Part shown: positions 6,204 through 59,218 of the stretch, in pieces | Layout of the letters: each line of letters opens with the position of its first letter | Numbering within the stretch: the first letter of the stretch is position 1 | NCBI GenBank assembly: GCA_030425705.1 | Contig: JAUHZU010000004.1 | Span: 1-64,000, forward strand | Length of the DNA: 64,000 bases | Source: Phycisphaerae bacterium | GTDB taxonomy: Bacteria > Planctomycetota > Phycisphaerae > Phycisphaerales > Phycisphaeraceae | Direction of reading: 5' to 3' | Position numbers and translations under genes: made by a program | Notes under the pieces: generated by a model | The model's database searches: none | What the model saw: the letters and a program-made list of their open reading frames with translations, nothing else | Told to the model about the DNA's origin: nothing

Positions 6204-6273
6204 GGGTCTTGGGTCTCGGGTCTTGGGTCTTGGGTCTCGGGTCTTGGGTCTCGGGTCTTGGGTCTTGGGTCTC
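6204..6273 (+). repeat. Ten tandem heptamers GGGTCTT/GGGTCTC
   Basis: Ten perfect 7-nt units run without a break. The last base follows the order T,C,T,T,C twice, so the array is also a duplicated 35-mer. It lies between the stop of the four-helix-bundle gene (6278) and the start of the UDP-glucuronate decarboxylase gene (6202). It is oppositely oriented to the diverged array at 6646-6680 on the other side of the same gene. Confidence 0.9.
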
Positions 6274-6277
6274 GGCA

Positions 6278-6634
6278 CTAAGCCAATGACTGGATGAAGC
6301 GGGTCAGCTTGGCACCTGTTTTCTGCATCAGCTCCCAGGCGGGGCGGGCGGTTGCGCGTTCGATCATCTGCTCCCGGACACAGACGACGAGTTGTGTCTC
6401 CAGTTCCATCAGCGATCCCCGGCTGACGTACAGGTGCTGGATGTACTCGGGGCGGTGGTGCCGCCCGTAACCCTCGGCGATGTTGGATGGCACCGATACC
6501 GCTGCACGTCGCATCTGAGTGACCAATCCATATCGCTCATCATCGGGCAGCAGACGGGTAAGGGTGTAGACCACATCCACGAGTTCCATGCCTAGCTGCC
6601 AGACTTCCAGCTTGCGGTACGACTTGTCGTCCAT
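6278..6634 (-). CDS. Four helix bundle protein (23S rRNA intervening-sequence / S23 family)
   Basis: A 118-residue helical protein. LEVWQLGMELVDVVY near the start, the central MRRAAVSVPSNIAEGYGR and the C-terminal helix are characteristic of the family first seen inside 23S rRNA intervening sequences. Diversity-generating-retroelement Avd proteins belong to the same fold. Their role is unproven, though nucleic-acid binding is known for Avd. The gene is enclosed by GGGT-heptamer arrays in inverted orientation, 4 nt from its stop and 11 nt from its start, so gene and repeats look like one inserted cassette. No reverse transcriptase or variable repeat is nearby. Confidence 0.9.
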   Translation of the reverse strand: MDDKSYRKLEVWQLGMELVDVVYTLTRLLPDDERYGLVTQMRRAAVSVPSNIAEGYGRHHRPEYIQHLYVSRGSLMELETQLVVCVREQMIERATARPAWELMQKTGAKLTRFIQSLA

Positions 6635-6645
6635 CGCCGATCCCC

Positions 6646-6680
6646 CACCCGAGACCCAGGACCCGGCACCCTAGACCCGA
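6646..6680 (-). repeat. Five diverged heptamers, inverted partner of the 6204 array
   Basis: On the plus strand the units read CACCCGA, GACCCAG, GACCCGG, CACCCTA, GACCCGA; on the minus strand each is a GGGT heptamer. The array overlaps the last codons and TAG stop of the gene ending at 6671, so the stop codon itself appears to come from the element edge. Confidence 0.8.
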
Positions 6681-17496: not shown

Positions 17497-17520
17497 GGTC
17501 GGGTTTCGGGTTCGGGTTCA
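17497..17520 (+). repeat. Short GGGT(C)-type array next to the iscR stop
   Basis: On the plus strand GGGTC, GGGTTTC, GGGTTC and GGGTTC follow each other, directly abutting the TGA of iscR on the minus strand. The sequence resembles one arm of the heptamer elements at 6204, 37641 and 57803, but no inverted partner is visible. Confidence 0.55.
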
Positions 17521-33372: not shown

Positions 33373-36264
33373 TCAGCCGGCCTTTTTGCCGGCCTTCTCG
33401 ACGGCCTTCTGGGACGGCTCGACGGTCTCGCCAAAGGCCTCGGCCAGCAGCACCTCCTGCTCGATCTTGTGCGCCGCCTTCGAGCCCGTCGCCGGGCTCG
33501 CCGAGTGCTTCCGGCTGGCGACGCTCAGCGTCCGCTCGCCCAGGAACCGCTCCTGATAGAAGCGTTGCTGGAAGAACGGCCAGGCCCCCTGGTTCTTCGG
33601 CTCGTCCTGGACCCAGACCAGGGGCGTGTCGGCGCCGTAGCCCGCGAGCGCATCCACCAGGGACTTGCGCGGCAGCGGGTAGAGCTGCTCCAGACGGACG
33701 ATCGCGACATCGTCCCGCTCCATCTTCTCGCGGCGCTCGATCAGGTCAAAGTACACCCGACCGGTGCAGAGCAGGATGCGCGAGGTCTTCTTCGGCTCGG
33801 TGCGCTCGTCGCCCAGCACGCGCTGGTAGGTGCCCGTCGCGAGGTCGTCGAAGGTCGAGACGCACTGGGGGTGACGCAGCAGCGACTTGGGCGTCAGCGC
33901 GACCAGCGGCTTGCGCCACTTGCGCAGGATCTGCCGGCGGAGCAGGTGGAAGAGCTGGGCCGGCGTGGTCGGCTGACAGACCTGGTAGTTGTCTTCCGCG
34001 GCGCTGGTGAGGAACCGCTCCAGCCGGGCCGACGAGTGCTCGGGGCCCTGGCCCTCGAAGCCGTGGGGCAGCAGCATGACCAGCCCCGACAGGCGTTTCC
34101 ACTTGTCCTCGGCCGAGGCGATGAACTGGTCGATGATGACCTGCGCACAGTTCACGAAGTCGCCGAACTGCGCCTCCCACATGATCAGCCCGTCGGGGTA
34201 GTCCAGCGAGTAGCCGTACTCGAAGCCGAGCGCCCCGGCCTCGCAGAGCGGGGAGTTGATGATGTCCACCGCCGCCTGCTCCTCGGAGAGGTGCCGCAGC
34301 GGCATGAACTCGTGGCCGTCCTTCACGTCGTGCAGCACCGCGTGGCGGTGGGAGAACGTCCCGCGCTGGCTGTCCTGCCCGGTGAGGCGGACGCGGTGGC
34401 CCTGCTCGGCCAGGGACGCGATGGCGAGCGCTTCGGCCGCGGCCCAGTCCAGCGGTCGGTCGCCCTTGGCCTGCTCCTTCTTCATGCGGAACAGCCGCTT
34501 GTGCTTCGGGTGCAGGTGGAAGTCGTCGGGGAGCTCGAGCTGCCGGGACAGCAGCTTCATCTGCGCCGCGACCGGGATGCCGGTGGCGATATCGTCGTCG
34601 GTGTTTTCCTTCCCGCCGGTGTAGCCCGCCCACGACCCGCGCAGCGCGTCGGAGTGCACGCGGAAGGTCGGCGATTTCGCGGCGCTCAGCTCCTTCTCCA
34701 GCAGCTCGGTCCGCCGCTCGGCGATGCGGTCGGCGTCTTCCTGCGTCACCCCGCCGAGCTTCAGCAGGTCGTCGAGGTACGACTTCCACACGCCCGGCCG
34801 GGCGTCCACCGCGTTGTAGAGCTTCGGCTGGGTGTAGCGCGGCTCGTCGCCCTCGTTGTGCCCGCGCTTGCGGTAGCAGTACATGTCGATGACCACGTCC
34901 TGCTTGAACTCGTGGCGGAAGTCCATCGCCAGCTTGACGACCTGCGCGACCGACTCGGGCGACTCGCCGTTGACGTGGAAGATCGGGCTCTGCAGCATCT
35001 TCGCGATGTCGGTGCAGTACCGGGTCGACCGCGAGTCCTGCGGGCTGGTCGTGAAGCCGATCTGGTTGTTGATGACCACGTGCACCGTCCCGCCGGTGTG
35101 GTACCCGTCGAGCTGCGAGAGGTTGAGCGTCTCCTGGACGATGCCCTCGCCGGCAAACGCCGCGTCGCCGTGGATCAGCATCGCGATCCCGCGGGTGCCC
35201 CGGCTTTCCCGGCCGGTGCGGTCCTGCTTCGCCCGGATGCGCCCGAGCGCGACGGGGTTGACGTACTCCAGGTGCGACGGGTTGAAGCACAGCGAGAGGT
35301 GGATGTTCTTGCCCGCGCGGGTCCGCCAGTCGCCGGAGTACCCCAGGTGGTACTTCACGTCGCCGCCGCCCATGTACAGCTCGGGGTCCTTGTCCTCGAA
35401 CTCGCGGAAGATCTTCTGCGGGCTCTTGCCCAGGATGTTCGCCAAGACATTCAGCCGGCCGCGGTGGGCCATCCCGATGACGATCTCCTGGCAGCCCTGC
35501 TCCCCGGCGTGCTCGAAGGCCATGTCCATCAGCGGGATCAGCGTCTCGCCGCCCTCCAGCGAGAACGACTTGGCCCCGATGAACTTCCGCTGGATGAACT
35601 CCTCGAACAGCGTCGCGTCCGTCAGCCGGGTGAGGATGCGGATCTGCTCCTTGCGCGACAGCGCGATCGTGTTCTGCGAGCCCTCCATCCGCTGCTGCAG
35701 CCACTGACGCGTCGCGAGGTTGTCGATGTGCATGAACTGCACGGCGATGTTGCGGCAGTAGGTGTTGCGGAGCTGATCGATCAGCGAGCGCAGGGTGCGT
35801 GTCTTGTCGCCGGGCACCGTGGAGGTGGTGACGAAGGGCTTGTCCATGTCCGCGTCGGAGAAGCCGTAGTACGCGGGGGTGAGCTCTTCGGGCAGCTCGG
35901 TGGCGGGCGCTTCGAGCGGGTTGAGGTGCGCGACCAGGTGGCCGAGCACGCGGTAGTTGCGGATGAGCAGGTCGACGCGGTGCTGCAGCGCCCCGGCATC
36001 GACGGCGGCGGCCGTGCGGTCGGCGTGGGCCGAGCCGTTGACCGTGGCGGCGGGCAGGCCCGCGGCGGGGCCGGCCGGGTCGAAGATGCTGCGCGGGCCG
36101 AAGCTCGGGCCGACCCGGACGACGCTGCCGTTGGACGCGGCGGACCAGCCGGCGAACTCGTCACGCCACGCTTCATCGACCGACTGCGGGTCGTTGAGGA
36201 ACTGCTGGTAGAGCTGTTCGACGTAGGCGAGGTTGCTCGCGGCGGGGACGATCGGCTCAGACAT
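33373..36264 (-). CDS. sucA: 2-oxoglutarate dehydrogenase E1 component
   Basis: A 963-residue thiamine-diphosphate enzyme. The N-terminal E2-contact helix (SNLAYVEQLYQQFLNDPQSV), the HRGRLNVLANILGKSP segment, GDAAFAGEGIVQETLNLSQL with the ThDP motif and the C-terminal Tkt-like domain (GTFSHRHAVLHD, MLLPHGFEGQGPEHSSARLE) are all present at normal length. It decarboxylates 2-oxoglutarate and loads succinyl onto E2. With sucB and lpdA it forms a complete OGDH operon, which suggests an oxidative TCA cycle. The ATG at 36264 precedes the binding helix; upstream in-frame Pro/Ala-rich residues do not look native. Confidence 0.96.
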   Translation of the reverse strand: MSEPIVPAASNLAYVEQLYQQFLNDPQSVDEAWRDEFAGWSAASNGSVVRVGPSFGPRSIFDPAGPAAGLPAATVNGSAHADRTAAAVDAGALQHRVDLLIRNYRVLGHLVAHLNPLEAPATELPEELTPAYYGFSDADMDKPFVTTSTVPGDKTRTLRSLIDQLRNTYCRNIAVQFMHIDNLATRQWLQQRMEGSQNTIALSRKEQIRILTRLTDATLFEEFIQRKFIGAKSFSLEGGETLIPLMDMAFEHAGEQGCQEIVIGMAHRGRLNVLANILGKSPQKIFREFEDKDPELYMGGGDVKYHLGYSGDWRTRAGKNIHLSLCFNPSHLEYVNPVALGRIRAKQDRTGRESRGTRGIAMLIHGDAAFAGEGIVQETLNLSQLDGYHTGGTVHVVINNQIGFTTSPQDSRSTRYCTDIAKMLQSPIFHVNGESPESVAQVVKLAMDFRHEFKQDVVIDMYCYRKRGHNEGDEPRYTQPKLYNAVDARPGVWKSYLDDLLKLGGVTQEDADRIAERRTELLEKELSAAKSPTFRVHSDALRGSWAGYTGGKENTDDDIATGIPVAAQMKLLSRQLELPDDFHLHPKHKRLFRMKKEQAKGDRPLDWAAAEALAIASLAEQGHRVRLTGQDSQRGTFSHRHAVLHDVKDGHEFMPLRHLSEEQAAVDIINSPLCEAGALGFEYGYSLDYPDGLIMWEAQFGDFVNCAQVIIDQFIASAEDKWKRLSGLVMLLPHGFEGQGPEHSSARLERFLTSAAEDNYQVCQPTTPAQLFHLLRRQILRKWRKPLVALTPKSLLRHPQCVSTFDDLATGTYQRVLGDERTEPKKTSRILLCTGRVYFDLIERREKMERDDVAIVRLEQLYPLPRKSLVDALAGYGADTPLVWVQDEPKNQGAWPFFQQRFYQERFLGERTLSVASRKHSASPATGSKAAHKIEQEVLLAEAFGETVEPSQKAVEKAGKKAG

Positions 36265-36682: not shown

Positions 36683-38173
36683 CTAGCGATCCCCGCGCAC
36701 CAACTCGATAAACCGCTCGCCCCGACGCTCGTAGTTCTCAAACTGGTCCCAGGACGCGCACCCCGGCGACAACAACACCACATCGCCCGCCACAACCCGT
36801 TCACCGACCGCCTCCATCGCCCGCTCCAACGTCCCGCAACGCACGACCGCCGCGCCGCCGGCAGCCGCTTCCGCGGCCAAGGCGACCGCGTCGCCCGTCG
36901 CGCCGATCGTGTACACCGCCCTACACCGCGACCGCGCGTAGCCCGCGAGCGGCGCGAGGTCGCTGCCCTTGTCGTAGCCGCCGAGGATCAGGTGCACCCC
37001 CACCCCCGGAGGGCCGCCCTCCCCCCCACCGCTTTCCACAAACGCCTCGACCGCGAGCCGCGCCGCGGCCGGCGTCGTGCACTTGCTGTCGTTGTAAAAC
37101 TTCACGCCGTCGAACTCGCCGACAAACTGCAAGCGGTGCGGCAGGCCGGGGAAGTCGGCGAGCATCTCACGCTTTGCCTCCCGGTCAATGAGGTGGCTTG
37201 TTTCCTTGCAAGCAAACCAAGCAGCGCTATACGCGAGGTGAGCATTCAGGCGATTATGCCGTCCCGGCACTGACAGCCGAAAAACCTCTGGCTGAGGTAC
37301 ATAAGTTGATCGTCTCGAGTAAGCCTTCTTACTCCTGATTCCGTCGAACGCTTTGATGCCGCCAGGCGGTAGATAGACGATATCTCCCTGCTGTTGATAA
37401 CGGCTGATCACCTGCTTCGCCGCGACGTAGGCCTCCATCGACCCGTGCCAGTCCAGGTGGTTCTCGCTGATGTTTGTCACCACCGCGATATGTGGCGACC
37501 AGCCGGGGAAGCCCGTCGCTTCGTCGGCCCGCAGCCGTTCGAGCATGAAGCTCGATAGCTCCAGCACCACCCAGTCGTCGGGGCCGATCGCGTCGAGGTG
37601 CTCCAGCAGCGAGCCGCCGATGTTCCCGCCGACCCAGGCCTTCGGGTTTCGGGTACCGGGCCTCGGGTCTGGGTTGCGAGGATCTGTTGGCTTGGGACTA
37701 TCCGTTCCGTCGAGACCCGAAACCCCGGACCCGGCACCCGAAAAAAACTTACCCAAGACGTGCCCGATCATCGCGGTGACGGTCGATTTGCCGGCACTGC
37801 CGGTCACGCCGATCGTGCGCAGGCGGTTGGGCAGGCGCTCGACGAGCAGCCGGACCTCGGTGGTCACCGGGATGCCCGCCGCCTTGGCCGCGCGGAGGAA
37901 CCGGTTGCCCGGCGGCACGGCCGGGTTGACCACGACCATCTCGCACGTCGTGAAGTCGCTGACGTTGTGTTCGCCCAGCCGCAGCGTGACCTGCCCCGCG
38001 TCGATCAGGGGCCGGAGCTTGGCGACGCTGTCGGCGAGTTGGTCCGCGGGCGACTGGTCGGTGACGAGCACGTCCGCGCCGCGGGCGCAGAGGAAGCGTG
38101 TGACGCCCACCCCCCCGCCGAACCGGCCGAGCCCCATGACGGTGACGCGTTGTCCCTCGAACTCGCCGGGCAT
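36683..38173 (-). CDS. murD: UDP-N-acetylmuramoyl-L-alanine--D-glutamate ligase
   Basis: A 496-residue Mur ligase. VMGLGRFGGGVGVTRFL binds UDP, GSAGKSTVTAMIGHVLG is the ATP loop (about 124-140), WVGGNIGGSLL and VVTNISENHLDWHGSM follow, and NDSKCTTPAA and the closing LSPGCASWDQFENYERRG belong to the C-terminal domain. It adds D-Glu to UDP-MurNAc-L-Ala. Residues about 144-177 are foreign to the family and coded by a 102-bp heptamer inverted repeat, in frame. Bases about 37190-37430 are lower in GC than the rest. The promoter is leaderless type. Confidence 0.92.
   Translation of the reverse strand: MPGEFEGQRVTVMGLGRFGGGVGVTRFLCARGADVLVTDQSPADQLADSVAKLRPLIDAGQVTLRLGEHNVSDFTTCEMVVVNPAVPPGNRFLRAAKAAGIPVTTEVRLLVERLPNRLRTIGVTGSAGKSTVTAMIGHVLGKFFSGAGSGVSGLDGTDSPKPTDPRNPDPRPGTRNPKAWVGGNIGGSLLEHLDAIGPDDWVVLELSSFMLERLRADEATGFPGWSPHIAVVTNISENHLDWHGSMEAYVAAKQVISRYQQQGDIVYLPPGGIKAFDGIRSKKAYSRRSTYVPQPEVFRLSVPGRHNRLNAHLAYSAAWFACKETSHLIDREAKREMLADFPGLPHRLQFVGEFDGVKFYNDSKCTTPAAARLAVEAFVESGGGEGGPPGVGVHLILGGYDKGSDLAPLAGYARSRCRAVYTIGATGDAVALAAEAAAGGAAVVRCGTLERAMEAVGERVVAGDVVLLSPGCASWDQFENYERRGERFIELVRGDR
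37641..37742 (-). mobile_element. 102-bp heptamer inverted-repeat insertion inside murD
   Basis: The left part on the plus strand is TTCGGGT, TTCGGGT, ACCGGGC, CTCGGGT. The right part reads GAGACCC, GAAACCC, CGGACCC, GGCACCC, GAA, which is the same heptamer type inverted. About 40 nt of unrelated sequence lie between. The length is 34 codons, so the reading frame is kept and the protein gains a Pro/Arg/Asn-rich loop between the ATP-loop helix and WVGGN. The arms resemble the arrays at 6204/6646 and 57803/57962. No target duplication is evident. Confidence 0.7.
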
Positions 38174-51581: not shown

Positions 51582-51601
51582 TCCATCAGGACAGAAGGAC
51601 C

Positions 51602-52912
51602 ATGAACCAACGCATTGTGATTACCGGCATGGGCTGGGTGACCCCCCTGGGCCACGACCTCGAGACCGTCTGGGCCGCACTGCTGTCGGGGGCTTCCGGC
51701 GTCGAGACGACACGGCACTTCGACGCGACGACGTTCCCGACGCGCTTCTCCGCGCCGGTCAAGGACTACGACCACAACGACTACGTCAAGCACCCGGAGC
51801 TGCACGTCGGCGTCGGGCTGAACACCAGCTTCGCCCTGGGCGCCGCGGCACAGGCCTGGGCGCAGGCCGGGCTCAACGGGTATGACGGGCTGGACCCCGC
51901 CCGCCTGGGGATCTACCTCGGCTCGGGCGAGGGGTCGCTGGACTTTGAGAACTACGTGGCCTCCAACCTCGCGGGCTGGGACGCCGAGTCACGCCGCGTC
52001 GACGGCGCGAAGTGGGCGGCCCAGGCCAAGCAGTCGCTGCAGGCCCTGGTCGAGATCGAGCAGGAGCCGAACATGCCGCTGACCCACCTGGCGCTGGAGT
52101 TCGGCGCGGAGGGGCCGGCCTACAACTGCCTGACCGCCTGCGCCGCCTCGACCCAGGCGATCGGCGAGGCGACCGAGGTCCTCCGCCGGGGCGACGCGGA
52201 CGTCATGATCACCGGCGGCGCGCACACCATGATCCACCCGCTGGGCGTGACCGGGTTCAACCGGCTGACCGCGCTGTCCAACCGCAACGACGACCCGCTC
52301 ACCGCGTCCCGCCCGTTCTCCGCCGACCGCGACGGGTTTGTCATGGGCGAGGGGTCGGGGATCATCATCCTGGAGACCCTCGAGCACGCGACAAAGCGCG
52401 GCGCGGCCCCGCTCGCCGAGGTCGCCGGCTACGGGTCCACGGCCGACGCCTACCGCATCACCGACATCCACCCCGACGGCCGGGGCGGCGCGGGCGCGAT
52501 GCGTCAGGCGCTCGACGCCGCGGGGCTCAAGCCCACCGACGTCGACTACATCTCCGCGCACGGCACGGGGACGAAGGAGAACGACTCGATCGAGACGAAG
52601 GCGATCAAGGCGGTCTTCTGCCCCGACGGCGACACCGCCGCCGCCCCGCCGGTCAGCTCGATCAAGTCGATGATGGGCCACCTCATCGCCGCGGCGGGCG
52701 TGTGCGAGGCGATCGTCTGTGCCCTGGCGATCCGCGACAACAAGCTCCCGCCGACCAGCAACTACGGCACGCCGGACCCCGTCTGCGACCTGGACTACAT
52801 CCCCAACGAAGCCCGCGACGTCGGCGCGGCCGGCGGGTCGGTCGAGGTCTGCCTGTCCAACAGCTTCGGCTTCGGCGGGCAGAACGACACGATCATCCTC
52901 CGCCGCGTGTAG
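51602..52912 (+). CDS. Beta-ketoacyl-ACP synthase II (FabF-type), catalytically complete
   Basis: A 436-residue KAS II. Cys180 (CLTACAAST), His320 (SAHGTGT), Lys355 and His360 (SIKSMMGH) form the intact Cys-His-His site; GFGGQND ends the protein. It condenses malonyl-ACP with acyl-ACP. AGAAGGACC precedes the ATG and the gap to the gene upstream is only 20 nt. In a KS-alpha/KS-beta pair this would be the active subunit. The pair may serve a specialised polyketide or long-chain pathway and not general fatty acid synthesis; no ACP is adjacent. Confidence 0.92.
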   Translation: MNQRIVITGMGWVTPLGHDLETVWAALLSGASGVETTRHFDATTFPTRFSAPVKDYDHNDYVKHPELHVGVGLNTSFALGAAAQAWAQAGLNGYDGLDPARLGIYLGSGEGSLDFENYVASNLAGWDAESRRVDGAKWAAQAKQSLQALVEIEQEPNMPLTHLALEFGAEGPAYNCLTACAASTQAIGEATEVLRRGDADVMITGGAHTMIHPLGVTGFNRLTALSNRNDDPLTASRPFSADRDGFVMGEGSGIIILETLEHATKRGAAPLAEVAGYGSTADAYRITDIHPDGRGGAGAMRQALDAAGLKPTDVDYISAHGTGTKENDSIETKAIKAVFCPDGDTAAAPPVSSIKSMMGHLIAAAGVCEAIVCALAIRDNKLPPTSNYGTPDPVCDLDYIPNEARDVGAAGGSVEVCLSNSFGFGGQNDTIILRRV

Positions 52913-54869: not shown

Positions 54870-57191
54870 TCAATCGCGTCCGCCCTCGAAGTAGGTGTTC
54901 CACAGCGGGATCACCTCGACCGGGCCCAGGATGCCGTCGGGCAGGGGCAGGTCCGGGTCGTAGCGGATGTGGATCACGCCCAGGCCGTTCACCGGCGGCT
55001 CGGCCTCGAGGTCGCCCTGTGCCGCGGAGAAGTAGCCCAGCGTCGTGTTGAACTGCGGCGACGTGTCGCCCAGCACCGGGCCGGTGTTCCGCTGCGGGTT
55101 GAACGTCGTCAGCAGCGAGCCGGTGATGTCCACCTGGCCCCGCATGTCGATCAGCCCGGCGACGATCGTGCCCGACAGCTCCAGGGTCTCCTGCGCGTCG
55201 TGCGGCGCGAGGAACGTGCCCATCTCCACCGAGTACTGCGGCAGCAGCATCGACGAGCGCTGGAACAGCAGCTTCTCGCCGTCGCTCAGCTCCGTCGAGT
55301 CCTCGATCTCGAACCGGGTCGTGCCCGTGAACGCGATCTTGTTGCGGGTGTGCGTGTACTCGACGGGCACATCGCTGACGATCGCGCCCTCGAACGTGCA
55401 GTTGTCAAATCGGATGTTGTTCGACACGGTCTTGGTGTCGTAGACCTCGACCCCGTCGATCTCGACGAAGCGGTCGGGGTGCTTGGGGTTACCCGTCGCG
55501 TCCTGCATGCCGGCGTAGTTGTAGTCCTCGCCGGTGTTCTGGGTCTCGGTCTCGACGAAGGTCACGCCGATGAACCGGCAGTTGATGAACAGCGCGTTGG
55601 TCCCCCGCGGGATCGTCACGTCGCGGAACGTCATATTCTCGTAGACCGGGCGGTCGTAGTAGTCGTACGGGTACGCGGCGCCGAAGGGCACGGCCTCGTT
55701 CTGCGTGACCCCGAGCGGCTGCGGCGAGGCCGGGTCGCCCGGGTCGTAGTTCGCGGCGTTCTGCGCGGCCTGCGTGAGGAAGTTGCCGTCCGCCATCGCG
55801 CGGAACGAGTCCACGTTGAATTGGCTGGGGTCCAGGTCGTACTGCTCGTTGTCTTCCGACTCGAAGTGCAGCGGGGAGTCGTTGTGCCCCGGCACGATCG
55901 AGCCCTCGAGGTAGTCCTGGTACGCGCCGCCCGACGCACCGTCGATCCAGCCCTGCGCATCGGCGGTGATGTGGATCTCGCCGCGGATCTTCGCGTACCG
56001 GTCGAAGTCGTCGATCAGCCCGTCGCCGTAGCCAGCCCGGCCGGGATCGCCGAACGTGTCGATCAGCTCCATGAACTGCGCCGCGTTGATCGGGCTCATC
56101 ACCGCTTCCAGCTCGCTCAGGCTGATCTGCCCCGGGCTCGACGCGGTGTCGAAGTGGCTCAGGAAGAAGTCGTACTCGTCGATGTAGCCGTCGTCGTTGA
56201 TGTCGTACGACTCGGGGTTGGCGTAGTCCGCGACCTCCGTGGAGTCGTAGATGCTCAGGCGGTTGTCGCCGTTCTGGTCATCCGCGATCAGCGAGCCCAA
56301 GAGCGCATCGAGGTCGGCGTCGAGCCCGGCGTCGAGCCCGCGGAAGTCGGACATCACCTGGATCGGGTGGCCGTGTGTCAGGTCCGTGTCGGTAAACGTC
56401 GAGCCGACCCGGCCTTCGATCATCACGTTCTGGCCGATCATGACCCGGCTGCGGGACAGGACGGCGAATTCGATCCGGCGGGTGATCTGGAAGTCCATCG
56501 AGATCGAGCGGTACACCCGCCGCCCCACCGCGCCGTCGTAGGCCGTCACGGTCACGCGCACGAACCGCGCGTCCAGCGGCGTCAGCTCGCTCACACCCAT
56601 GTCGCTGTAGGGCGGGCGCTGGTAGTAGTCGCTGTCGTAGTCTTCGCCGACGATCGGGTGCGGCGTAAAGGTCGCGGTGAAGGACGGCTCGTTGGGGCCG
56701 ACCGCGATCGGGCCGACGTGGACCACGCCGTCCGAGTCGATGTACGGCTCCTGCTGGTTGTGGAACTCCCCGCTCAGCGAGGAGACGAGCACGGCCGCGA
56801 CCTCTTCCCAGATCGCGTCGGCCTTGCCCAGCAGGACGTCCGTGGGCATCCCGCTGGTGTCGCCGGCCAGGTCCGAGGTCGTCAGCGTCGTGATGTAGTC
56901 CGAGTCGCTGGGGTCATAGATCGCGCCCGACCGCGTCAGCACGGTCGACGACGCGTCGCTCAGCCGGAAGATCATCAGGCGCATGCCCGTCTCCGACGCG
57001 GCGAGGGAACGGTTGACCTTGATGTGGGTCTCGGCGGTGTGCAGGTTGCCCTGCGAGACGATCGCCATCGCGGCCGCCAGCGACCCGAAGATCACCAGGA
57101 ACATCATCGCGAGCAACGCCGCGGCCCCGCGCTCACGCCGAAGCGTGTGCGGTGAGCGGTGTCCGGTGTCCGGTGTCCGATTGGCTTTCAT
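54870..57191 (-). CDS. Large PilX-like prepilin-type protein with EF-hand pair
   Basis: A 773-residue protein. Its leader is unusual: RTPDTGHRSPHT comes from a CGGACAC-type heptamer array. The hydrophobic helix (about 22-46: GAAALLAMMFLVIFGSLAAAMA) is PilX/GspK-like. Two EF-hand/dockerin-like loops occur at about 304-345 (DDQNGDNRLSIYD and DINDDGYIDEYDFF) and another acidic one nearby (GYGDGLIDDFDRY). The C-terminal half has beta-helix-like repeats (FDNCTFEGAIVSDVPVEY). It may be a calcium-binding minor pilin or adhesin at a pilus tip. Confidence 0.7.
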   Translation of the reverse strand: MKANRTPDTGHRSPHTLRRERGAAALLAMMFLVIFGSLAAAMAIVSQGNLHTAETHIKVNRSLAASETGMRLMIFRLSDASSTVLTRSGAIYDPSDSDYITTLTTSDLAGDTSGMPTDVLLGKADAIWEEVAAVLVSSLSGEFHNQQEPYIDSDGVVHVGPIAVGPNEPSFTATFTPHPIVGEDYDSDYYQRPPYSDMGVSELTPLDARFVRVTVTAYDGAVGRRVYRSISMDFQITRRIEFAVLSRSRVMIGQNVMIEGRVGSTFTDTDLTHGHPIQVMSDFRGLDAGLDADLDALLGSLIADDQNGDNRLSIYDSTEVADYANPESYDINDDGYIDEYDFFLSHFDTASSPGQISLSELEAVMSPINAAQFMELIDTFGDPGRAGYGDGLIDDFDRYAKIRGEIHITADAQGWIDGASGGAYQDYLEGSIVPGHNDSPLHFESEDNEQYDLDPSQFNVDSFRAMADGNFLTQAAQNAANYDPGDPASPQPLGVTQNEAVPFGAAYPYDYYDRPVYENMTFRDVTIPRGTNALFINCRFIGVTFVETETQNTGEDYNYAGMQDATGNPKHPDRFVEIDGVEVYDTKTVSNNIRFDNCTFEGAIVSDVPVEYTHTRNKIAFTGTTRFEIEDSTELSDGEKLLFQRSSMLLPQYSVEMGTFLAPHDAQETLELSGTIVAGLIDMRGQVDITGSLLTTFNPQRNTGPVLGDTSPQFNTTLGYFSAAQGDLEAEPPVNGLGVIHIRYDPDLPLPDGILGPVEVIPLWNTYFEGGRD
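57145..57179 (+). repeat. Five heptamers GTGTCCG-type in the leader of the PilX-like gene
   Basis: The units read GTGTGCG, GTGAGCG, then GTGTCCG three times, coding for the N-terminal residues RTPDTGHRSPHT on the minus strand. No inverted partner is seen. The array differs in sequence from the GGGT arrays. Confidence 0.6.
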
Positions 57192-57258: not shown

Positions 57259-57843
57259 TCAATCGTCGGTGACGATCCAGGTCAGCTTGGTGATCGGCTC
57301 GTCGACCGTCGCGCCCGGTTCGCGGTAGTAGACCTCGACCGTGACGCGCATCACGTCCGTCGAGCCCAGGGGCTGGGCGAACGCCGCGTCGAGGTAGTCC
57401 GGCAGCACGCTCTCGACCTTGACCTTCTGGGTCCAGCCCGTCAGGTCGCTGATCTCCTGACGCAGCGCGTTGACCGGCGGGCTGAACTCCGTGCCCGCCC
57501 CGCTGCCGCTGGTGATCACGCCCGCGAAGTCGTCCAGGTCATCGAACGCGACGACCGAGGTCTCGTCGGATTCCGGGCCGTAGTTCGTCTCGCCGGTGAT
57601 CGGGTCGTGCAGCGGCATCTGCAGCGTCAGCTCGCGCATCTCGTTGGCGAGCAGCATCGCGGTGGTGGTCCGCGTCGCCCAGTTGTTCTTCATGTGGTAG
57701 GCCTGCTGCGCGGCGATGATCGCCAGCACACCCGTGCCGACGATGATCGTCGTCAGCGCCGCCTCGATCAGCGTAAAGCCCGCCGCGCGGCGCATGCGCC
57801 GCGGGTGCCGGGTGCCGGGTTTCGGGTTTCGGGTCCGCATCAT
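57259..57843 (-). CDS. Pseudopilin, GspI/PilV-like
   Basis: A 194-residue protein with the class III cleavage site G22|FTLIEAAL and the pilin helix (TTIIVGTGVLAIIAAQQAYHM). Its leader MMRTRNPKPGTRHPRR is coded by a GGGT-heptamer array and is longer than usual. A later Met (57795) directly before RRAAGFTLIE gives the normal short leader and might be the original start. The globular domain contains VRVTVEVYYREPGATVDEPI-like strands. GGAAAG stands close upstream of the ATG at 57843. It is probably part of the same pilus unit. Confidence 0.8.
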   Translation of the reverse strand: MMRTRNPKPGTRHPRRMRRAAGFTLIEAALTTIIVGTGVLAIIAAQQAYHMKNNWATRTTTAMLLANEMRELTLQMPLHDPITGETNYGPESDETSVVAFDDLDDFAGVITSGSGAGTEFSPPVNALRQEISDLTGWTQKVKVESVLPDYLDAAFAQPLGSTDVMRVTVEVYYREPGATVDEPITKLTWIVTDD

Positions 57844-57989
57844 GACTTTCCCAGCCGTCGCCAACTCAACGCTACGATTCAATCCCGCCCGGAGGTAAAT
57901 CCAATCCGGGGATCACGGCTCAACATACGCCGCTACAACCCACACAGCCGGACCGGGTCTCGACACCCGAGGCCCCGGACCCGAGCCCC
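57803..57989. mobile_element. 187-bp heptamer inverted-repeat element at the pseudopilin/gspF junction
   Basis: The left arm at 57803-57837 is GGGTGCC, GGGTGCC, GGGTTTC, GGGTTTC, GGGTCCG. The right arm at 57962-57989 is GACACCC, GAGGCCC, CGGACCC, GAGCCCC, that is, GGGY heptamers in the opposite orientation. The right arm abuts the TAG stop of gspF and the left arm codes for the leader of the pseudopilin. About 124 nt lie between. The arrangement repeats that at 6204-6680 and 37641-37742. Confidence 0.65.
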
Positions 57990-59218
57990 TATTTCACCAG
58001 CGTCGACAGCTTGAAGATCGGCAGGATGATCGCCATCGCGATGAAGCCGACGACCGAACCCATACACACGATCATGATCGGCTCGATCATGCTGGTCACG
58101 ACCTTGATCGCCTCGCGGAGCTGCTTGGCGTAGTACGTCGAGACCTGGTCCAGCACCTCGCCGAGCTTGCCCGACTCCTCGCCGGCCCCGACCATCTGGA
58201 TGACCGGCTTGGGCAGCAGCGTCGTCTTCTGCAGCGGCTGGACGATCTTCTTACCCTGCTTCACCGAGCTGTAGACCGAGCGCCACAGCTGCTTGAACAT
58301 CCGGTTGCCCGAGATCTCACCGGTGATCGCGAGGGTGTCCAGCATGGGCACGCCGGCGTTCACCAACTCGCCCATCGTCTGCAGAGACCGGCTGATGTAG
58401 AGCGCCCGGAACATCCGGCTGAAGATCGGGATCCGCAGCTTGATCCGGTCGAACCACCACCCGCCCGGCTCGGTCTTGGTCAGCATGAACACGAACGCCG
58501 CCAGGATCAGGAACCCGATCAGCACCGCCCACCACCACTGCACCATGAACGCCGACAGGCCCATCAGGAAGATGGTCGGCCAGGGCAGCGCGGCCTCCTT
58601 GCCGGCGAAGACGTCGGCGAAGCGCGGCAGCACGAAGGTGAGCAGGAAGATCGTCGCCCCCACCGCGAGCGAGGCGATGACCGACGGGTAGATCATCGCG
58701 CCGATAACCATCTGCCGGGTCTCGATCTCCTGGGCGAGGTACGCGGCGATCCGGTCGAGCATCTGGCTGAACGAGCCGGACATCTCCGACGCGCGGACCA
58801 TGTTGATATACAGCGGCCCGAACAGCTTCGGGTGCTTGGCGAGGGCCTCGGAGAAGGGCTTGCCCGACTCGACGTCCTGCTTGATCTGGTAGAGAATCTG
58901 CTGGAACTTGGGGTTCTCGACCTGCTCGGCGATGCCGTCGAGCGCCTGCCGCAGCGAGATGCCGGCCCGGATCATGACCGAGAGCTGGGTGGTGAACCCG
59001 AGCACGTCTTTCTGCGACGGGCCGGAGGTGTAGTTGAGGGCCTTGAGCGTGTCGCTCAGGGACTTGGCGCGCCCGGCCCCGCGGAGCGGGGTGAGCTGCA
59101 GGACGGTGTTGCCCTGGTTGCGCAGCTGCTGCGCGGCGTTGAGCGCGTTCTCCGCCGAGATCGTCCCGACCGAGACCTCCCCGCCGCCGGCTCGCATCTG
59201 GTAGCGATAGGTTGGCAT
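57989..59218 (-). CDS. Type II secretion / type IV pilus inner membrane protein GspF/PilC
   Basis: A 409-residue protein. An N-terminal beta segment (YRYQMRAGGGEVSVGTISAENALNAAQQLR) precedes two GspF repeats, each with a helical bundle and membrane helices: QLSVMIRAGISLRQALDGIAEQ and VIQMVGAGEESGKLGEVLDQVS, closing with IIEPIMIVCMG-type helices. It is the inner membrane platform that couples the ATPase to pilus assembly. GGAG precedes the ATG at 59218. The PilT-like gene is 82 nt upstream on the same strand. Confidence 0.92.
   Translation of the reverse strand: MPTYRYQMRAGGGEVSVGTISAENALNAAQQLRNQGNTVLQLTPLRGAGRAKSLSDTLKALNYTSGPSQKDVLGFTTQLSVMIRAGISLRQALDGIAEQVENPKFQQILYQIKQDVESGKPFSEALAKHPKLFGPLYINMVRASEMSGSFSQMLDRIAAYLAQEIETRQMVIGAMIYPSVIASLAVGATIFLLTFVLPRFADVFAGKEAALPWPTIFLMGLSAFMVQWWWAVLIGFLILAAFVFMLTKTEPGGWWFDRIKLRIPIFSRMFRALYISRSLQTMGELVNAGVPMLDTLAITGEISGNRMFKQLWRSVYSSVKQGKKIVQPLQKTTLLPKPVIQMVGAGEESGKLGEVLDQVSTYYAKQLREAIKVVTSMIEPIMIVCMGSVVGFIAMAIILPIFKLSTLVK

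Follow-up and report, generated by a model that had tools for sequence, protein, structure and literature searches.

The essential cell-wall gene murD of this Phycisphaerae bacterium holds a 102-bp palindromic element that keeps the reading frame. This insert is probably a non-autonomous, MITE-like selfish translated palindrome, a member of a class in Phycisphaeraceae whose repeat unit and core vary. The stretch analysed comprises 64,000 nucleotides (positions 1 to 64,000 of contig JAUHZU010000004.1; hereafter the window), and the genome to which it belongs is called the host genome.

A palindromic element in frame in murD

The element and its surroundings are as follows.

36683..38173, minus strand: murD host gene (TIGR01087)
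37641..37742, minus strand: palindromic element of 102 bp (34 codons), in frame in murD, whose sense strand is the minus strand
37641..37673: arm that is G-rich on the plus strand, five degenerate heptamers (CGGGTNY)
37674..37710: core between the arms, 37 bp
37711..37742: arm that is C-rich on the plus strand, four degenerate heptamers

A preliminary description had placed an inverted-repeat element at these positions with about four heptamers at each end. A period-7 scan agreed, counting five units in the G-rich and four in the C-rich arm. The symmetric arms (37641-37670 and 37713-37742) are 30 nt each, 80% complementary and 42 nt apart. When a 17-base pattern derived from the arms was searched with up to three mismatches, the window gave 21 matches against 1.64 expected, and none of 100 shuffles had as many. 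The murD-sense RNA of the element, folded together with 10 nt of sequence on either side, has a predicted energy of -60.1 kcal/mol (z = -3.86), which none of 200 shuffles equalled. Rfam gave no RNA family match up to E = 0.1 between window positions 36000 and 39000.

The murD frame is open through the element, and one of the other two sense frames has a stop. We rejected the idea that openness of CGGGTNY in six frames is an adaptation to coding DNA, as 75.5% of random 7-mers of the same composition are equally open. The element encodes residues 177-210 of the 529-residue ORF, or begins at residue 144 when counted from the ATG at 38173, and it splits the TIGR01087 match into two stretches, the second beginning at residue 210. 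An AlphaFold model of the 496-residue MurD, made with 31 relatives, had a mean pLDDT of 86.5. Its longest segment below 50, residues 156-172, falls within the insert and is predicted to follow the P-loop helix (129-145) and to precede the strand 179-183 that leads to WVGGN, the place where the preliminary description had put an added loop; two shorter segments below 50 occur elsewhere (289-293 and 385-387). The claimed length of exactly 34 codons stands as the span of the symmetric arms, but it could not be read off an empty site: no exact one was found among the MurDs compared, and in the arrayless MurD of the same-genus genome G002 the corresponding segment is 23 residues shorter, not 34 (39 vs 62).

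The MurD loop in relatives

We collected 93 MurD loci (30 + 63) and located the segment from GKST to GGN in 84 of them, of which 77 are distinct. The closest relatives are MAGs named Phycisphaeraceae and Phycisphaerae. The segment has a median of 30 residues over the 77 distinct MurDs and 62 in the host MurD. Arrays of period 7 or 8 were found in seven of the 77 segments, and none were found at the control periods 5, 10, 11 and 13. The insertion reading would suffer if other MurDs had a homologous loop of this length that lacked repeats; when we looked for one, we found 8-mer arrays in six other MurDs, with the unit CGCCAAGA in G001, G003, G004, G013 and L157 and GGACAGCA in G029. These sister arrays run in one direction and show no visible inverted partner. 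Segments of at least 43 residues occur in nine MurDs, six with 7- or 8-mer arrays and three without (G018, 43 residues; G012, 45; G015, 64), and the three arrayless ones are, by eye, not homologous to the insert. The MurD insert is therefore no ordinary loop, and the different units across relatives show that this loop received different repeat arrays in different lineages.

Heptamer elements in the host genome and its relatives

The two-arm pattern was found at 11 distinct places in the host genome and nowhere with a reversed control. Single arms, searched with two mismatches allowed and overlapping matches counted, gave 215 matches vs 41 for the control. We tested array pairs in the window and in 40 loci picked by arm matches or TIGR02436 hits, with at least four units per array and at most 500 bp between arrays, and all 19 of the 19 neighbouring unlike pairs ran in the order G-rich to C-rich. 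Most of the 41 array intervals are intergenic and often lie a few bases from gene ends on both sides, the genes having been called by a simple codon-score script whose called ends can be wrong.

In five cases a single ORF runs through the element in frame: murD, hemW, miaA, dusB and a GNAT-like gene, which has GGGTCTA arms and was identified by inspection. A single ORF running through is what intragenic means for 7-mers here, so that out-of-frame copies or halves of one gene could count as intergenic. For murD, miaA, dusB and HemW the NCBIfam match is broken into two stretches, and only murD and miaA exceed the curated cut-off. The GNAT-like ORF aligns with GNAT-like proteins of the relative G001 and had no Pfam match up to 1e-4. 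The gene calls raised two further intragenic flags: L112:3076-3107 is an ambiguous start, and the other is the N-terminus of a ScpA-like protein (L102:1389-2543), where a CGGGTNY array encodes the N-terminal stretch.

BLAST did not find the murD core in the other 7-mer copies of the host genome and G001, where matches are mainly to the arms. Two full-length matches to the murD element were found, at 70-71% identity, both in G010. By eye, CTTACGA beside the C-rich arm is common to several G010 copies and two host copies, and CAAGATGG is common to the host copies in L084 and L092. The GGGT two-arm pattern is present in 20 of 61 genomes including the host, with a patchy distribution and genome-specific variants (control, at most one hit per strand). 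G010, of the same family, has the most matches of the 61 genomes, 60 overlapping ones per strand, with the unit GGGTATC. A short, partnerless CGGGTTT array lies at window positions 17501-17518, in the 58-bp gap before 17518, and the matching gap of G001 has no 7/8 array.

A sister family with 8-mer arms

The ruvB gene in the host contig contains an element of 102 bp whose arms are built from GGGGCCAA. A DNA search with this element gave 13 matches in the host genome and 27 in G001, while 2 of 35 other genomes had a single match each; identities were 71-82% over 80-112 bp at many loci. The 42 matches were reduced to 30 loci, from which 17 near-full-length copies (80-103 bp) were aligned, leaving out short matches, repeat listings of one place and at least four long matches in G001 to which no locus had been assigned. 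The aligned copies share a core, AAGTG ... CGCAACACTCGG, and by this similarity a sister family with a homologous core is present in many different genes.

Fourteen of the 17 copies are intragenic, and all 14, which were detected by DNA similarity alone, lie in frame and in sense orientation. Frame-keeping insertion, as the preliminary description had suggested, thus extends from the five 7-mer cases to every intragenic copy of the 8-mer family. Every one of the 14 intragenic 8-mer copies could also be read through in one to three of the antisense frames. In 13 of them the right arm is translated as HSAP or a close variant (HSPP, HPAP, HLAP), and L260 differs. The remaining three copies are intergenic, two of them 3-12 bp from a called gene, and we recognised no gene broken by any of the three. 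Family models identify the hosts as ruvB (in both genomes), valS, queG, a RarA-like ATPase, a Snf2 helicase, tgt, leuS, GNAT proteins, priA (two copies) and mutS (in both genomes, at different sites); the NCBIfam matches for valS, the RarA-like ATPase and Snf2 are below cut-off, partly because loci cut the genes, and the match for the GNAT protein L262 is below the Pfam cut-off. In locus L296 (G001:C1:1140001-1153000), the neighbours priA and mutS together hold four in-frame elements, three of the GGGGCCAA type and one of the GTGAACA type.

Covariation in the 8-mer family is weak, with double changes at 3 of 21 pairs and a covariation term of 0.35, and does not support the idea that the hairpin is under selection. 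The uniform sense orientation may reflect either selection on the encoded peptide or an RNA step. The elements of both families are dispersed, have a polarity and an inverted structure, and lie in frame where they are in genes. By analogy, the 7-mer family, whose cores are mostly unlike, would move as the 8-mer family does; its mobility is argued largely from this analogy, the murD core being absent from the other 7-mer copies of the host genome and G001.

Arrays at gene edges

We also scanned 364 contiguous kb of the host contig and 300 kb of G001 for tandem arrays independently of their unit. At strict settings, strong arrays had periods of 7 or 8, or twice these lengths, and hardly any had others. 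At a looser threshold, the host stretch had 27 arrays, 20 of them intergenic (p = 4e-12), and G001 had 28, of which 21 were intergenic (p = 1e-10). A called gene end lay within 10 bp for 14 of the 20 and 11 of the 21 intergenic arrays, respectively, vs 15% and 12% with random placement. Control periods, which were chosen by us, gave 7 of 23 (p = 0.04) and 12 of 18 (p = 1e-5) intergenic arrays at the same threshold, with 2 of 7 and 1 of 12 near gene ends. Inverted partners accompany many of the 7/8 arrays, whose units include GGGTCTA, GTGAACA, GGGGCCAA, GATGGCG and TAGGGCC, and the arms frame the intergenic gap whatever the directions of the genes, behind stop codons as well as ahead of starts. 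Inverted array pairs numbered 37, in 7 of the 11 genomes scanned. A purine-rich left arm was rejected as a universal rule, since 30 of the 37 pairs follow it, five do not and two are even.

Two arrays of the window illustrate this arrangement.

57145..57179: array of the heptamer GGTGTCC (period 7), upstream end of the gene called at 54870-57107; the related array at this place in G001 is built from a different unit
57802..57993: intergenic relative whose CGGGTNY arms (57802-57834 and 57965-57993) abut called genes on both sides; the orthologous G001 gap has GATGGCG arms

The GGTGTCC array looks N-terminal to the 54870-57107 gene if the start is the ATG near 57191.

Filled, shortened, empty and replaced sites

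Comparison of the host genome with G001 revealed the same sites in different states. The second priA site is filled in G001 and element-free in the host genome, and the compared stretch measures 192 vs 90 bp, 34 codons more in G001. This one clean filled/empty pair, whose flanks have diverged, showed no visible target-site duplication. At the first priA and first mutS sites the host genome holds shortened copies. At the second mutS site the host has a GGGGCCAA element and G001 a GTGAACA-type element in the same place, both in frame, and the GNAT-like proteins have GGGTCTA arms in the host where two G001 homologues have GGGGCCAA elements. As judged from these alignments, filled, shortened and empty sites exist between species and different families can occupy one site; filled and empty sites, together with the different families at one site in mutS and GNAT genes, show turnover.

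Among 99 gene junctions conserved between the host contig and G001, six had arrays in both, nine in G001 only and one in the host only. This sharing was significant (Fisher p = 3e-5; control periods, p = 0.22), also at stricter thresholds, which left five and four junctions with arrays in both (p = 2e-4 and 9e-5). At window positions 51582-51628, a 47-bp gap separates two genes; the G001 junction has a four-helix-bundle gene, to which this gap is the unfilled counterpart.

Association with four-helix-bundle genes

The window contains a four-helix-bundle cassette whose ends resemble those of the murD element.

6204..6678: four-helix-bundle cassette with murD-type heptamer arrays, G-rich at 6204-6275 and C-rich at 6640-6678; an orthologue is present in G001
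6278..6634, minus strand: four-helix-bundle ORF of 118 aa, TIGR02436 / PF05635, 23S rRNA-intervening sequence protein

The cassette protein and its G001 orthologue are identical at 92 of 118 residues. We called a TIGR02436 gene framed when its 5' and 3' flanks form an inverted repeat with a higher score than 99% of 1122 mismatched flank pairs have. By this measure at least 18 of 34 loci in the host genome and its relatives are framed; 16 fail, one of which is the window cassette itself (L050), scored as a miss from a wrong start/ORF choice. By eye, the framing flanks are mostly tandem 7- or 8-mers, and the units differ between cassettes. Of the other four TIGR02436 genes in the host genome, L048 has GGGTCTA, L049 has GTGAACA, L047 has a degenerate array (p = 0.06 only) and L051 has no clear array.

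Across 11 genomes, picked for long contigs and TIGR02436 number and treated as independent points with phylogeny uncorrected, the excess of period-7/8 arrays correlated with the number of TIGR02436 genes (Spearman 0.90, p = 0.0002). The correlation was 0.89 (p = 0.001) without the host genome (G000) and G001, and for inverted arrays it was 0.71 (p = 0.014). Three TIGR02436-free genomes had few arrays and no inverted ones in 120-140 kb each. There were exceptions, namely G007 (one gene, 74% GC), which has many arrays at all periods, and G045 (seven genes), which has one inverted array. REP/RAYT was rejected as the driver because array density does not track the number of Y1 transposases (Y1_Tnp) in the 11 genomes (Spearman 0.39, p = 0.23). 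An Avd-like pairing with reverse transcriptase was also rejected: the two reverse transcriptase genes of the host genome (L122 and L123) are on C2 and C4, and the five TIGR02436 genes are on C7, C9, C14 and C16.

The elements are associated with four-helix-bundle genes, and the relation is one of association, not of mechanism. The kinship with the four-helix-bundle cassette that the preliminary description proposed accordingly stands as one of architecture alone, seen in the shared arms at 6204-6678, the framed loci and the array density that tracks TIGR02436.

Proposed mechanism and alternatives

We propose that a small hairpin element with repeat-array ends may insert or be copied to new sites. 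Copies that break genes would be lost, and the survivors would be those at the edges of genes or, in frame, within loops that tolerate them. Within a locus the repeat units may shift over time, both arms together. The murD RNA would most likely be translated straight through, giving MurD a disordered loop of 34 residues, and we infer that this extra loop is present in the mature protein. Mobility is probably driven by a trans-acting factor, perhaps the TIGR02436 protein of the like-ended cassettes. Mobilisation by the four-helix-bundle protein is plausible; as the actual mover of the elements it is a possible candidate that we put somewhat below an even chance.

An unlikely alternative, though the strongest we considered, is local repeat growth, in which slippage or template switching builds 7- and 8-bp arrays in tolerant loops or at gene edges and nothing moves. 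It would account for the different units at orthologous sites, the one-sided arrays of sister MurDs, the absence of the murD core from other copies of the host genome, and the dominance of periods 7 and 8 in the strict scan. Slippage is not, however, expected to give inverted arms of one unit round a core, and the homologous core of the 8-mer family at many unrelated loci in two species requires copying. The three sampled TIGR02436-free genomes, with their few arrays and no inverted ones, also speak against it. A more improbable reading is that arrays near start and stop codons are regulatory sites to which a post-transcriptional regulator binds, a role that has been put forward for TAACTGA repeats, and that the intragenic copies are by-products. 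The crowding of arrays within 10 bp of gene ends and the sharing of array positions at orthologous junctions, with other units, favour such a role. Yet the arms frame gaps whatever the gene directions, after stops as well as before starts, and one and the same gene has different units in different species, which would be surprising if the binding site were fixed.

The preliminary description had also raised removal of the insert at the RNA level, that is, an RNA intervening sequence excised as in 23S rRNA, with MurD unchanged. The strong predicted RNA hairpin and the relation to cassettes of the four-helix-bundle (IVS) protein are in its favour. Excision would require neither an open frame nor a constant orientation, yet the copies inside genes can be read through in frame, and those of the 8-mer family share one orientation and nearly one frame. 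Moreover, IVS removal leaves fragmented rRNA, and a cut mRNA would not be rejoined. RNA removal is therefore not supported, and we regard it as highly improbable. The reading of the insert as a selfish translated palindrome can also be widened. The 23S rRNA intervening sequences, the four-helix-bundle (S23p/Avd-like) cassettes, the gene-edge heptamers and the in-frame coding palindromes might form one mobile system, in which the TIGR02436 protein would spread elements ended by inverted 7- or 8-mer arrays, possibly via RNA. This is a speculative proposal that we hold to be doubtful; spread via RNA would explain the sense orientation of all 14 intragenic 8-mer copies.

Relation to known systems

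The elements most closely recall the Rickettsia palindromic elements (RPEs). These are described as dispersed palindromes of about 100-150 bp that form several families, lie in frame in unrelated conserved genes, are exposed to solvent in the cases modelled, and can belong to different families at one orthologous site (PMC10969869, PMC2229807, PMC3767692). The murD element likewise is palindromic with 102 bp, its sister family measures 80-103 bp, multiple dispersed copies lie in frame in unrelated ORFs, and different families occur at one site. Unlike RPEs, the elements end in inverted tandem arrays of degenerate 7- or 8-mers, their host phylum is Planctomycetota and not that of Rickettsia or Wolbachia, many copies bracket intergenic regions, and array density tracks four-helix-bundle genes. 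By this comparison they would work like RPEs, and we do not file them as RPEs, from which the phylum and the end structure set them apart.

Several other systems share single traits. The Coxiella 23S IVS has tandem heptamers (GACAGAT) upstream of its S23p ORF (PMC4990558), and by analogy these would fit one larger class. The window cassette at 6204-6678 resembles 23S rRNA IVSs in having inverted terminal repeats round a PF05635 ORF; the murD element differs from them in holding no S23p/TIGR02436 ORF and in lying in murD, and the others lie in intergenic or protein-coding DNA, mostly without an ORF. TAACTGA repeats are tandem repeats of 7 bp that cluster directly before start codons and sometimes occur inside ORFs; they are direct, with one fixed unit and a single inverted case (PMC4679880). 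Our elements share the position ahead of start codons, whereas they form inverted pairs, have degenerate and variable units and also occur behind stop codons. Like MITEs, for several of which in bacteria in-frame fusions are described (PMC2229807), they are small, with terminal inverted repeats and dispersed non-autonomous copies; unlike them, they have tandem-array ends. At the second priA site, with its diverged flanks, no target-site duplication is visible. In MITE terms the TIGR02436 cassettes, which share the end style, may be candidate autonomous relatives; Y1 transposases, the one transposase family compared, do not track array density. REPs are described as 20-40 bp long with GTAG or CGTC tags and have been reported in Planctomycetes (PMC3733652). 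Both are palindromic repeats, but ours are mostly 80-160 bp, have array ends and vary in density without a link to Y1_Tnp.

Significance

In-frame coding palindromes are best known from Rickettsia and Wolbachia, and MITE fusions from Neisseria, enterobacteria and Yersinia. No report of such elements in Planctomycetota was found among the best-ranked search results, subscription journals being mostly outside their coverage. The Phycisphaeraceae lineage adds a different end structure, several families, clear hosts, a candidate partner gene, and sites that are filled in one species and empty in another. It makes two long-standing questions testable, namely the role of orphan four-helix-bundle IVS proteins and the spread of coding palindromes. 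For the organism itself, the elements show recurrent loop growth in MurD, MutS, PriA and GNAT proteins, and if the doubtful single mobile system were real, MurD, RuvB, MutS, PriA, ValS and LeuS would carry element products as extra loops.
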